A stretch of DNA of 64,000 bases. It comes from Qipengyuania citrea (GTDB lineage: Bacteria; Pseudomonadota; Alphaproteobacteria; Sphingomonadales; Sphingomonadaceae). The stretch is taken from the NCBI RefSeq assembly GCF_024171405.1, contig NZ_JALJZT010000002.1:372001-436000 (forward strand), read 5' to 3'. Both the position numbers and the translations under genes were made by a program. Below the pieces are notes generated by a model. The model saw nothing but the letters and a program-made list of their open reading frames with translations. It was not told the DNA's origin and did no database searches. This document shows positions 52,654-59,353 of this stretch, in pieces (the stretch's first letter is position 1; each line of letters begins with the position of its first letter).

Positions 52654-53768
52654 CCGGTCTCGTCCCCGCCCCCATCGCACGTCAGCCATGGCAGATGCTG
52701 TTTCCGCTGTTCGTGCTGATCGGCTTCGGCGCGCTGGTGCTGTATTCCGCCGCGGGTGGGAACTGGGATCCCTATGCGTCCTCGCATGTCATCCGCTTCG
52801 GCGTGTTCCTGGTCATGGCCTTCGTGCTCAGCCGGTTCTCGCGCGATCTGGTGATGCTGTTCGCCATCCCGATTTATGGGGTAGTGCTGCTGATGCTGGT
52901 CGCGGTGGAGGCGATCGGTTTCGTCGGGGGCGGCAGCCAGCGCTGGCTCGACCTGGGCTTTATGCAATTGCAGCCCTCGGAGCTGATGAAGCCGGCAATC
53001 GTGCTGGTCCTCGCGCGCTATTACGCAACCTTGCCGGTCGGCATGGTGCCCACCGTGCGTGCCCTGATTGCACCGGGGGCACTGATCCTCGCCCCGGTGG
53101 CGCTGGTGCTGCTGCAGCCCGATCTGGGCACCTCACTGGCGATCGTGTTCGGCGGTGCGGTCATCATGTTTTCCGCGGGCCTGCCGCTGCGCTGGTTCGT
53201 CGGAGCGGGCCTGGCTGCCGCCGTGCTCGCCCCGGTGGCCTTCTTCTTTGGCTTGCAAGACTACCAGCAGAAGCGGGTGTTCACCTTCCTCGATCCCGCC
53301 AGCGATCCGCTGGGCGATGGTTACCACATCACCCAGTCCAAAATCGCGATCGGATCGGGGGGCTTTTCCGGCAAGGGCTTCAACGAAGGGTCGCAGAGCC
53401 ATCTGCACTATCTGCCCGAACCGCACACCGACTTCATCTTCGCCACCATGGCCGAGGAATGGGGCTTTATCGGCGGGCTGATCGTGCTCGGCGCTTTCGC
53501 CATGATTTTCGGCTGGGGCCTGGCAGTGTCGCGCGCGAGCACCGACCGGTTCGGCAAGCTCGTGGCGCTCGGCATGACCGCGACGATCTTCTTCTATGTC
53601 GCGATCAATCTGATGATGGTCATGGGCCTGGCGCCGGTGGTCGGCATTCCGCTCCCCTTCATGAGCCATGGCGGCAGTTCGATGCTCACCAACATGATCT
53701 GCATCGGCTCGTTGATGATGGTTCACCGCTGGAACCGCAAGGCCCCGCGCACCGGCCTGATCCGCTAG
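52650..53768 (+). CDS. rodA: Peptidoglycan polymerase RodA
   Basis: SEDS-family glycosyltransferase (372 aa) working with PBP2. Multi-pass membrane protein with family motifs SQRWLDLGFMQLQPSELMKP, LQPDLGTSLAIVFGGAVIM, YHITQSKIAIGSGG, and GVxPVxGIPLP-like APVVGIPLPFMSHGGSSML. It starts ATGA-overlapped with mrdA. Its TAG stop overlaps by 4 nt the stop of the convergent LuxR gene. Confidence 0.96.
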   Translation: MTGLVPAPIARQPWQMLFPLFVLIGFGALVLYSAAGGNWDPYASSHVIRFGVFLVMAFVLSRFSRDLVMLFAIPIYGVVLLMLVAVEAIGFVGGGSQRWLDLGFMQLQPSELMKPAIVLVLARYYATLPVGMVPTVRALIAPGALILAPVALVLLQPDLGTSLAIVFGGAVIMFSAGLPLRWFVGAGLAAAVLAPVAFFFGLQDYQQKRVFTFLDPASDPLGDGYHITQSKIAIGSGGFSGKGFNEGSQSHLHYLPEPHTDFIFATMAEEWGFIGGLIVLGAFAMIFGWGLAVSRASTDRFGKLVALGMTATIFFYVAINLMMVMGLAPVVGIPLPFMSHGGSSMLTNMICIGSLMMVHRWNRKAPRTGLIR

Positions 53769-54475
53769 AGTTCGATCAGTCCCAGCTTGAGCGCGCGCAC
53801 GGTCGCGGTCACGCGGTCGTTGGTCTGCAGCTTGTCATAGACCCGGCGCGTATAGGTACGCACGGTTTCGGGCGAGATCTCGAGGATCGCGGCGATATCG
53901 CCCGCCGACTTGCCCCGCCCCATCCATTCGACGACCTCGCGTTCGCGGTCCGACAAGGCGACCGATGCCCGGCCCTCGTCCATGACTTTGCAGAGCTGCA
54001 GATGCGCGGCGAGGATCAGCGAGTGGATTTTCTGCAGGCGCTTCTTGGAGAAGCCGTCGGGATCCTCGGCAAACCGCATCGTAGCATAACCGTCGCGATT
54101 GCGCGGACCGAACAACGCGAAGACCACCCAATTGTCGACGTCAAGCTCCTCCAGATCGTCGAGAAAGCTTGTGACATCCGGTATCGACTTTCCACGTGCG
54201 CGCACCTCGGTCCAGGTCAGTACGGGACCGTGCTCAAAAGCGAGTTGGGGGATCGGGTCGCGTCCACGGAAATCGTCGCTAATGTAACGTTTCTGGTATT
54301 CGACGGGAAAATCGCGCGTCCAGATAAATGTGTTTCGCGAGGTGGGCGATTCGAACACCGGCGTGAAGTGATAGCTTAACCAGGTAGCGCCTTGTTCTAG
54401 GCACGCCGCGTAAAGGTATTCGAGAATTGCCTCGCAATCCTCCATCTTGACGATATGTTTCGTGGTGTCGTGCAT
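53765..54475 (-). CDS. LuxR-family regulator with autoinducer-binding domain (solo)
   Basis: Regulator of 236 aa. Residues 1-160 resemble the acyl-homoserine-lactone-binding domain, and about 170-236 is the LuxR/GerE HTH (LSDREREVVEWMGRGKSAGD, SPETVRTYTRRVYDKL). Pocket residues, by TraR numbering: Y61, D70, P71 and W85 are conserved (Y64, D73, P74, W88 here), but W57 is Tyr (Y60) and the G113 position appears to be Trp (W116). No luxI is in the window, so it may be a solo sensing another ligand. Confidence 0.85.
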   Translation of the reverse strand: MHDTTKHIVKMEDCEAILEYLYAACLEQGATWLSYHFTPVFESPTSRNTFIWTRDFPVEYQKRYISDDFRGRDPIPQLAFEHGPVLTWTEVRARGKSIPDVTSFLDDLEELDVDNWVVFALFGPRNRDGYATMRFAEDPDGFSKKRLQKIHSLILAAHLQLCKVMDEGRASVALSDREREVVEWMGRGKSAGDIAAILEISPETVRTYTRRVYDKLQTNDRVTATVRALKLGLIEL

Positions 54476-55026: not shown

Positions 55027-55102
<76 letters not shown>

Positions 55103-55157: not shown

Positions 55158-55206
55158 ATCACATCGAATGTGATTGGCGGGATTGGCAATCACATTAGGC
55201 TGTGAT
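55158..55206. promoter_or_regulatory. Tandem inverted repeats in the ribBX promoter
   Basis: Two dyads lie 12 to 60 nt before the ribBX start: ATCACAT-cga-ATGTGAT (55158-55174) and ATCACA-ttaggc-TGTGAT (55189-55206). Their centres are about 31.5 bp apart, near three helical turns. A possible -35 TTGGCA (55183-55188) abuts the second dyad. Layout fits a repressor that binds as cooperating dimers. Confidence 0.6.
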
Positions 55207-55217
55207 ACCCGTCCGCT

Positions 55218-56462
55218 ATGAACACGATCGAAAAAGTTCGCACACTCGTTTCGCAGGGTCTCATGACCCGCGCCGGGCTCGCCCGCGCGGCGGGGCTTCA
55301 TGCCAATACGCTGCGCGAGTGCGGCGAGGATAGCTGGAACCCGACCGCCGATACGCTGGCCAAGCTCGAAGCCTTCCTCGAGGCCAATGACGAGACCCCG
55401 GTCATCGTCGGCGCCGAGGAGATCATCGACGAAGCGCGCAATGGCCGGATGTATATCCTTGTCGATGACGAGGACCGCGAGAACGAAGGCGACCTGATCA
55501 TTCCCGCGCAGATGGCGACACCCAGCGCGATCAATTTCATGGCGACGCATGGCCGCGGCCTCATCTGCCTGTCGCTCGACCGCAAGCGCGTCGAAGCGCT
55601 CGGCCTCGAACCGATGAGCCGCGACAATCGCGAAAGCATGCAGACCGCTTTCACCACCTCGATCGAGGCCAAGGACGGCGTTACGACCGGGATCAGCGCC
55701 GCCGACCGCGCGCGCACCGTTTCGGTCGCCATCGATTCGACCCGCGGACCCGACGATATTGTCACCCCCGGCCATGTCTTCCCGCTGGCGGCGCGCGATG
55801 GCGGCGTGCTGGTCCGCGCCGGCCATACCGAAGCGGCGGTCGATATCTCGCGCCTTGCAGGCCTCAACCCCTCGGGCGTGATTTGCGAGATCATGAACGA
55901 GGACGGCACCATGGCGCGGCTCGACGATCTGATCGGCTTTGCCCGCCGCCACGACATGAAGATCGGCACGATCCGCGACCTGATCGAATACCGGATGCGT
56001 CACGACCACCTGGTCGAGCGCGTCGCCGAGGACAGTTTCGATTCCGACTATGGCGGCGACTGGCGCCTGCTGACCTACCGCAACACTGTCGACGGCAGCG
56101 AAAGCTACGTCCTGCAGAAAGGCCATGTGGTCGAGGACCAGCCTACCCTTGCCCGCGTCCACCCGATCTCGATCTTCGACGATGTGCTGGGCAAGCCCGG
56201 TCCGCGCAAGCGCACGCTGCAGCGCGCGATGCAGGCGGTGGGCGAACATGGCGCGGGCGTGATCGTGCTGATCACCGGGCGTCCGGCATCGAACCGCGGC
56301 TACAGCGAAAGCGACGCGCAGCGCAATGTCGGTATCGGATCGCAGATCCTCGCCGATCTCGGCATCGAGGACATGATCCTGCTCAGCAATTCGCAGCCCA
56401 ATGTCGTGGCGATCGAAGGCTACGGCCTCAATATCGTCGACCACAAACCCATTCCGGAGTGA
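55218..56462 (+). CDS. HTH-fused 3,4-dihydroxy-2-butanone-4-phosphate synthase (RibBX type)
   Basis: Three-part protein of 414 aa. Residues 1-58 form a Cro/CI-like helix-turn-helix ([34 protein letters not shown]). Residues about 62-265 are RibB, which makes the four-carbon unit of riboflavin from ribulose 5-phosphate: [32 protein letters not shown]. Residues about 270-414 resemble GTP cyclohydrolase II but lack its three zinc-binding Cys and key motifs, as in RibBX proteins, so RibA activity must come from elsewhere. The next gene is ribH. Repeats in the promoter suggest autoregulation through the HTH. I saw no FMN riboswitch in the 115 nt after the tRNA. Confidence 0.9.
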
Positions 56463-56467
56463 CCCGC

Positions 56468-56890
56468 ATGGCCCGTTTCCTGATCGTCGAAGCCCGTTTC
56501 TACGACCACCTCAATGACATGCTGGTAGCGGGCGCGCGCGCCGCGCTCGAAGCTGCCGGGCATGACGTGGAAGTCCTCACCGTCCCCGGCGCGCTCGAAG
56601 TCCCCGGCGCGATCGCGCTCGCTTCCGAAAGCGGCCGCTATGACGGCTATGTCGGCATCGGCGTGGTGATCCGCGGCGAGACCTACCACTTCGAAATCGT
56701 CGCCGGTGAAAGCGCGCGCGGGATCATGGCGCTGACGATGGACGGCATGGCCATCGGCAACGGCATACTGACGGTCGAGAACGAGGCGCAGGCGCTGGTC
56801 CGCGCCGACCCGGCCCAGAACGACAAGGGCGGCGAAGCGGCCAAGGCGGCGATGACGCTGCTCGATCTGCAGGGCCGGTTCGCCGGCTAA
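56468..56890 (+). CDS. ribH: 6,7-dimethyl-8-ribityllumazine synthase
   Basis: Penultimate step of riboflavin synthesis: condenses the RibB product with the pyrimidine intermediate. The 140 aa product has [20 protein letters not shown], the conserved [29 protein letters not shown] (catalytic His) and [12 protein letters not shown]. It starts 6 nt after ribBX, in an obvious operon. The stop overlaps by 4 nt the stop of the next, convergent gene. Confidence 0.94.
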
Positions 56891-59107: not shown

Positions 59108-59353
59108 ATGAACGGTGCCCTCGAATGGATCACTTCGATCGGCACCGTGCTCGCCGCATCGATGATCGCCTTCGACATGGGACGCCGCGCCACCGCCTGG
59201 GGGTTCGTACTGTTCTGCGTGGTTTCCGCGCTCTGGATTTACATCGGACTGACCGAAGATGCGATCCCGCTCGCCGCGATGAACGGCATCCTCCTGCTGA
59301 TCAACGCCTGGGGCGTATGGCAGTACTGGTTCCACCCGAAGAACCGGACCTAG
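59108..59353 (+). CDS. Small membrane protein
   Basis: Protein of 81 aa with two or three hydrophobic helices (SIGTVLAASMIAFDM, GFVLFCVVSALWIYIGL, AMNGILLLINAWGVWQYW), ending in PKNRT. The layout resembles short YgjV/PnuC-like proteins, but the family is uncertain. The ATG at 59108 has AGGAC upstream; an ATG at 59075 would add eleven polar residues. Flanked by a palindrome shared with the convergent eno gene. Confidence 0.7.
   Translation: MNGALEWITSIGTVLAASMIAFDMGRRATAWGFVLFCVVSALWIYIGLTEDAIPLAAMNGILLLINAWGVWQYWFHPKNRT

Follow-up and report, generated by a model that had tools for sequence, protein, structure and literature searches.

How does a riboflavin-synthesis enzyme come to carry a DNA-binding domain of its own, and what would that domain do there? 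The question is raised by a locus of Qipengyuania citrea, analysed here within a 64,000-nucleotide stretch of its genome (the window), in which the RibBX protein begins with a small helix-turn-helix (HTH) head and its gene is preceded by a pair of palindromes (Table 1). The explanation that we favour, and consider quite likely, is that the head is a captured phage Cro protein, which would bind operators in its own promoter and repress ribBX and ribH.

Table 1. Features of the ribBX promoter and operon, with positions in the window
Feature	Position	Strand	Remarks
Distal operator ATCACAT-CGA-ATGTGAT	55158..55174	.	Spacer 3 bp; family consensus 4
−35-like element TTGGCA	55183..55188	+	Adjoins 5′ side of proximal operator; picked by eye
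Proximal operator ATCACAT-TAGG-CTGTGAT	55189..55206	.	7-4-7 build
Weak −10-like element TACCCG	55206..55211	+	17 bp from the −35, 6 bp 5′ of the ATG; picked by eye
ribBX, 414 aa	55218..56462	+	Cro head, DHBP synthase and degenerate GTP cyclohydrolase II (X) domain
Cro-type DNA-binding head (predicted), residues about 1-60	55218..55397	+	Helix 3 around GLHANTLRE
RibB (DHBP synthase) domain, residues 67-258	55416..55991	+	PF00926, 6.2e-83
X domain, residues 267-414	56016..56459	+	Cys motif absent, though present in the intact RibA of this genome
ribH (lumazine synthase), probable second operon gene	56468..56890	+	PF00885, 5.1e-40

By its enzyme domains the protein is a RibBX. The DHBP synthase domain is complete (191/191 PF00926 positions), the X domain is a partial GTP cyclohydrolase II without the Cys/catalytic motif (36 bits against TIGR00505, for which the cut-off is 205.85), and a separate, intact ribA with the Cys motif lies elsewhere in the genome (194 bits; C2:2154955), as does ribE. 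The residues before position 67 are HTH-like in the window protein, falling under every Pfam cut-off, and the head is named weakly by PHROGs and Pfam, with a best solved-structure match at E 0.069. At E values up to 10, HTH_3 matches 36 of 48 aligned heads (best 1.6e-5) and the Cro/C1 model HTH_26 matches 35 of the 48; on these matches, the Cro-like HTH proposed for the RibBX N-terminus in the original prediction is supported as being of Cro/C1 type.

Genes for RibBX with and without this head differ in their surroundings. Directly upstream of headless genes lies ribE in 34/37 cases (median estimated gap −2 bp) versus 28/129 for head-bearing genes, where the quartiles of the upstream gap are 49 and 76 bp and so leave space for a promoter. 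The downstream neighbour is ribH in 96/129 head-bearing and 35/37 headless cases. Two genomes hold both kinds of RibBX: in G173 one copy bears the head (C1:8312-9561, aligned in two pieces) and another does not (C1:1572724-1573785), and G072 combines a headless RibBX with a partial head on a fragment at the end of a contig (C16:7-360). Further upstream in the window, the minus strand encodes a regulator of LuxR type at 53765-54475 that has a domain for autoinducer binding (PF03472, PF00196), and a tRNA-Lys(CTT) gene (55027-55099) stands just 5′ of the ribBX promoter. Such a tRNA gene lies at most 300 bp upstream in 33/129 head-bearing loci versus 0/37 headless ones; tRNA genes are common attachment sites for phages.

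Two ATCACA-type inverted repeats had been predicted before ribBX, and they are indeed there, centred on 55166 and 55197.5 with 31.5 bp between the centres. At a threshold of at least 11/12 letters of TCACAT-N3/4-ATGTGA, these two dyads are the only matches in the window. Their inner half-sites form a perfect 10-bp inverted repeat (55167-55176 / 55187-55196), and the proximal dyad may also be read as ATCACA-N6-TGTGAT.

We fetched 166 RibBX loci: 129 head-bearing and 37 headless, the latter comprising 24 of the family and 13 of other families. One genome, G030, is counted twice (L035 and L074); L074 was kept in the 129-locus count and left out of the promoter, permutation and Shine-Dalgarno counts, which cover 128 loci. 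Start codons for the site counts, at the named and phage loci too, were picked by rule rather than taken from annotation. Conservation of the dyads upstream of orthologues, the check proposed with the prediction, holds in 128/129 HTH-RibBX loci and in 0/37 headless loci, a site being scored as at least 10/12 letters of TCACAT-N4-ATGTGA within 150 bp of the start. The site is perfect in 73 loci, has 11 letters in 42 and 10 in 13; L071, with 9, is the sole head-bearing locus below the threshold. Dinucleotide shuffles of the upstream regions reached it in only 26 of 2,580 cases, and palindromes built from 59 permutations of the half-site occurred in at most 13/128 loci (mean 0.92) versus 127/128 for the real one. 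A spacer of 4 is strongly preferred, with 114 loci at 11/12 letters or better, compared with 17 at a spacer of 3; no other length from 0 to 10 gives more than 10 loci.

Position is conserved as well. A proximal-type site (at least 10/14 letters) begins 37 to 26 bp before the ATG in 112/128 ribBX promoters; in 111 of the 128 its start falls within −32 to −26, with −29 (45) and −30 (33) the commonest positions. The remaining 16 promoters lack a good match in this region. In only 58/128 can a second site be recognised, and in 49 of these it lies 30-33 bp from the first. The six bases 5′ of the operator agree with TTGACA at five of six letters in 17/112 loci versus 2/112 at a control offset. Shine-Dalgarno-like letters precede 10/112 head-bearing genes that have the site at its usual place and are commoner (7/16) where a good site is missing there, the pattern to be expected of an operator linked to the start of transcription. 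The ribBX transcript is thus probably leaderless, starting at or beside the ATG, with weak −35 and −10 elements.

A RibBX match was found in 59/61 genomes picked by kinship and in at least 193/199 genomes of a family sample. In the window's genus, RibBX carries the head in 34/37 genomes; the other three, all of them assemblies split into 290-420 contigs, yielded a fragment (two genomes) or no match (one). Among RibBX matches from the order's other families, the 18 full-length ones all begin at residues 56-66 and so have no head. In a collection of named genomes, 80/80 loci (kept of 533) have the head fused to RibB and the site present, although some of these genomes are already among the 166 loci. 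On a tree of the RibBX core, the head label needs seven changes, at least four of them on well-supported branches, and the site follows the head in 4/4 independent pairs on such branches; the sign test gives a p of only 0.125 because there are only four pairs. This tree covers 140 of the 166 loci: L039, L101 and L109 had no core motif or were too short, and thinning removed L074 and rows of the same genus, 23 in all. L039 itself is a poor local alignment, and the RibBX of its genome is headless.

Sequence searches suggest that the operator has a nearly unique target in each genome. The exact 16-mer occurs in 27/45 head-bearing genomes, once in each and, in 26 of these 27, at most about 90 bp before ribBX; the other 18, which include the window's genome, have only inexact sites before ribBX. 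Among 45 genomes taken as headless (34 from the family and 11 from other families, with G072 and its fragment counted here), only G077 has the exact site, in a phage region. In the window's genome, a one-mismatch search with an N4 spacer recovered the ribBX site and two others, and a two-mismatch search with an N3 spacer gave the ribBX site plus three more. No operator match above 10/14 letters was present in the 3-kb stretches that surround ribA and ribE. In G162, the exact site lies not before ribBX but about 100 bp 5′ of a gene for a small membrane protein, located between ribH and eno (L210:2081-2446), which is possibly a second target in one lineage; no operator was seen upstream of the orthologue of this gene in the window (59111-59353).

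The exact site of G077 leads to the relatives of the head among phages. This genome has two RibBX copies, both headless, and a free-standing 68-residue relative of the head (L209:9212-9415), whose gene is divergent from a CI-like repressor gene (phrog_4, 8.6e-17); the prophage stretch is the same as IMG/VR viral contig L218. On the 5′ side of this cro gene stand ATCCCATCTTGATGTGAT and ATCACATTCAGATGTGTT at a distance of 31 bp; a second pair with that same distance, ATCACATTAGGATGTGAT and ATCACATTATGATGTGGT, lies 2.8 kb away. The two paired-operator regions resemble the OR/OL pair of lambda. The whole interval (L209:6371-9418; G077:C1:215372-218418) has the look of a lambda-like control region, bounded on either side by operator pairs in the letters of the ribBX promoters. 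Over 54 residues, blastp gives 57% identity between the window head and the G077 Cro, and the head profile matches the phage Cro profile with a probability of 99.8% (hhalign).

Viral contigs, phage Pan3 and probable prophages from other alphaproteobacteria (L052, L443 and L444) yielded further relatives of the head. A CI-like gene is divergent from cro in L209/L218, L217, L308, L309, L052 and L444; at the remaining phage loci, a simple motif test for such a neighbour found none. Across 14 phage loci (13 viral contigs and Pan3, with L313 and L314 encoding the same protein), the first 7-4-7 palindrome lies 29-31 bp before the cro ATG in seven, and in five of those seven a second palindrome follows 30-33 bp further on; of the other seven loci, four have operators in other positions and three have no convincing operator. 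The L217 sequence (ON968454.1) belongs to Pseudanabaena phage Pan3, for which a cyanobacterial host is listed, and carries a cro/CI pair like that of alphaproteobacterial prophages, with the operator AGCATATTCTGATATGCT; its annotation does not call the frame cro.

The letters of the operator are shared less widely than its build. The exact operator occurs in only one phage (L218/G077), with L312 close to it. When the window promoter was aligned with that of the G077 prophage, the z-score was 4.9 and none of 500 shuffles did as well; for 128 ribBX promoters the median z was 3.2, and 71% exceeded 2. The promoters of six other phages aligned weakly (z 0.8-2.8, L312 from a doubtful start). A 14-letter pattern scan of viral contigs returned at least 120 stretches at 80 or more loci, about the level of chance for a collection of that size; among the matches listed, only L396, the prophage already known, was recognised. 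Judged by eye and in few cases, half-sites go with the motif of the protein: ATCACAT-like half-sites with GLGANSLRD-type proteins (L312 also has ATCCCAT), AGCATAT with NTLNG or NTLLG, mostly CGCAT with DTTLR or DTVLR and, in L220, CACAT with NTLAN. This pairing hints at a specificity code and fits the idea that the HTH reads the dyads.

Sequence comparison thus supports the homology of head and Cro, the shared operator and spacing, the co-occurrence of head and operator and the near-uniqueness of the site. The Cro relatives in phages, the same operator, the 31-bp pairing and the placement 29-31 bp before the start make it most likely that a promoter-operator-cro module was captured by ribBX and fused to the enzyme. 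In a phylogeny built from 54 RibBX heads and 14 proteins of phages, a single RibBX clade is not rejected (p-AU 0.60), although the tree, with 64 columns and unsettled bootstrap values, is poorly resolved. A scan of 385 genomes across the class matched the head profile in ten: four are fusions, all in the window's family, and six lie in different settings, two of them Cro-like and one itself a CI-like repressor. The simplest account is one capture within the family, followed by several losses.

Under the mechanism that we propose, an ancestor within the Sphingomonadaceae would have taken a temperate-phage promoter, with its operators and cro gene, in frame before ribBX. RibB enzymes are dimers, so the heads would be paired, and two heads joined in this way would bind the palindromic ATCACAT-N4-ATGTGAT. 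The proximal operator appears to occupy the gap between −35 and −10, so that a bound dimer would shut out RNA polymerase, and the second operator, about 31 bp upstream, would strengthen repression. The amount of the enzyme itself would then keep ribBX-ribH at a set level, and autorepression by enzyme amount, with no ligand needed, is the simplest reading. We infer DNA binding by the head, its pairing through RibB, repression rather than activation and capture in the direction from phage to host.

Control at the level of RNA was rejected on Rfam searches. As predicted, no FMN riboswitch was found in the window: Rfam at the gathering cut-off returned only a tRNA. RF00050 was likewise found in 0/67 genomes (33 with the head and 34 without; controls 7/14), in a search whose stricter filters may lose weak matches. 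The head is not simply a replacement for the riboswitch, since headless relatives are likewise without a detected one.

We regard as doubtful a ligand-controlled sensor of the kind raised in the original prediction, with feedback from flux or product level, in which the RibB or X domain would bind substrate, product or flavin and so alter DNA binding by the head. This reading extends autorepression by a captured Cro head rather than opposing it, and is encouraged by the union of head and enzyme in one chain. In Shewanella RibBX, the X domain is described as modulating RibB through a mechanism that the source gives as unknown (PMC10012899). However, the analyses presented here point to no ligand, and the X domain is present in headless relatives too. 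Phage Cro proteins, moreover, act without a ligand.

Transfer in the reverse direction, with phages acquiring head and operator from a host ribBX, is decidedly unlikely. The G077 prophage Cro falls on the RibBX side of the head tree and the exact operator is found in one phage only, as that history would have it, but diverse phages have Cro relatives whose operators share the 7-4-7 build and distance while differing in half-sites, and alphaproteobacterial families other than the window's have Cro-like genes as well (L052, L443 and L444). The class scan, in turn, matched the fusion in the window's family only, and the 18 full-length RibBX of other families in the order lack the head. Even less probable, and in our judgement very unlikely, is activation, in which a head seated between −35 and −10 would switch the promoter on in the manner of MerR. 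The operator lies exactly between both promoter elements, a geometry that is by itself compatible with activation; against this, the phage relatives are Cro-like, a repressor family, and the spacer, by eye a normal 17 bp, needs no realignment.

That some other regulator, for instance of CRP/FNR type, binds the dyads while the head has a different role is extremely improbable, for although the TGTGA/TCACA half-sites resemble those of CRP, the dyad is absent where the head is absent (0/37) and, unlike the sites of a global regulator, is nearly unique in each genome. A CRP-type site was also rejected on order and spacing, with TCACA on the outside and TGTGA inside-out with N6.

Self-repressing enzymes and tamed phage repressors are already known; what is new is that HTH head and operators most likely represent, to judge from their sequences, a captured phage cro/promoter module. 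We found no earlier description of HTH-RibBX in the literature, which is weak evidence given that mainly open papers were covered. It seems that head, operators and spacing passed as a unit from phage to an essential pathway of vitamin synthesis, where they have persisted through much of a bacterial family, with head and operator missing together where they are missing. This suggests how a single fusion event can equip a host gene with a ready-made control circuit. The result is a candidate autoregulator with a nearly single target, and is likely to be part of how sphingomonads without a detected FMN riboswitch control riboflavin synthesis. As head and operators are common to host RibBX and some sphingomonad phages, the enzyme might also repress the early promoters of infecting phages and a resident prophage CI might control the host riboflavin operon, though we think such cross-talk unlikely; the sole prophage with exact operators sits in G077, where RibBX is headless, a single case of no statistical weight.

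Several known systems can be set beside this locus. RibBX was reportedly first described by Brutinel in 2013. The RibBX proteins of Shewanella, Aeromonas and Bradyrhizobium share with ours a functional RibB, a degraded GTP cyclohydrolase II and a separate RibA, and differ in that the accessible portion of the source describes no HTH head or operator for them (PMC10012899). The window protein differs from RbkR of archaea in being a DHBP synthase rather than a riboflavin kinase; Pfam finds only DHBP synthase and GTP cyclohydrolase II domains in it, so it does not belong with RbkR. Archaeal RbkR does unite a riboflavin enzyme and a DNA-binding regulator of riboflavin genes in one chain, although it is not known to contain a phage module. 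Bacillus RibR is a regulatory protein derived from a riboflavin enzyme and acts on FMN riboswitch RNA, of which none was found in the window. The likeness to RbkR and RibR drawn in the original prediction stands as a concept and goes no further. RbkR is named as a regulator in one paper (PMC10746257).

The principle of autoregulation has parallels, as it has in the lambda-like switch. PutA, NadR and BirA are enzymes that repress their own genes, and none of them is known to bind DNA through a phage Cro head at phage operators. With lambda-like CI/Cro systems that have an S24-type CI, the locus shares a small homologous HTH and paired palindromic operators upstream; cro of the phage relatives is placed against a CI-like gene, and autorepression is expected, as in lambda. 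The differences are that the RibBX head is the N-terminus of an enzyme, has no CI partner and is served by one operator region. Homology to phage Cro and paired 7-4-7 operators at a fixed distance are both found, whereas a stand-alone gene divergent from CI is not, the head being fused and the window promoter having a tRNA gene upstream. Judged from these comparisons, the head most likely descends from Cro and would act like one, yet is no phage cro gene.
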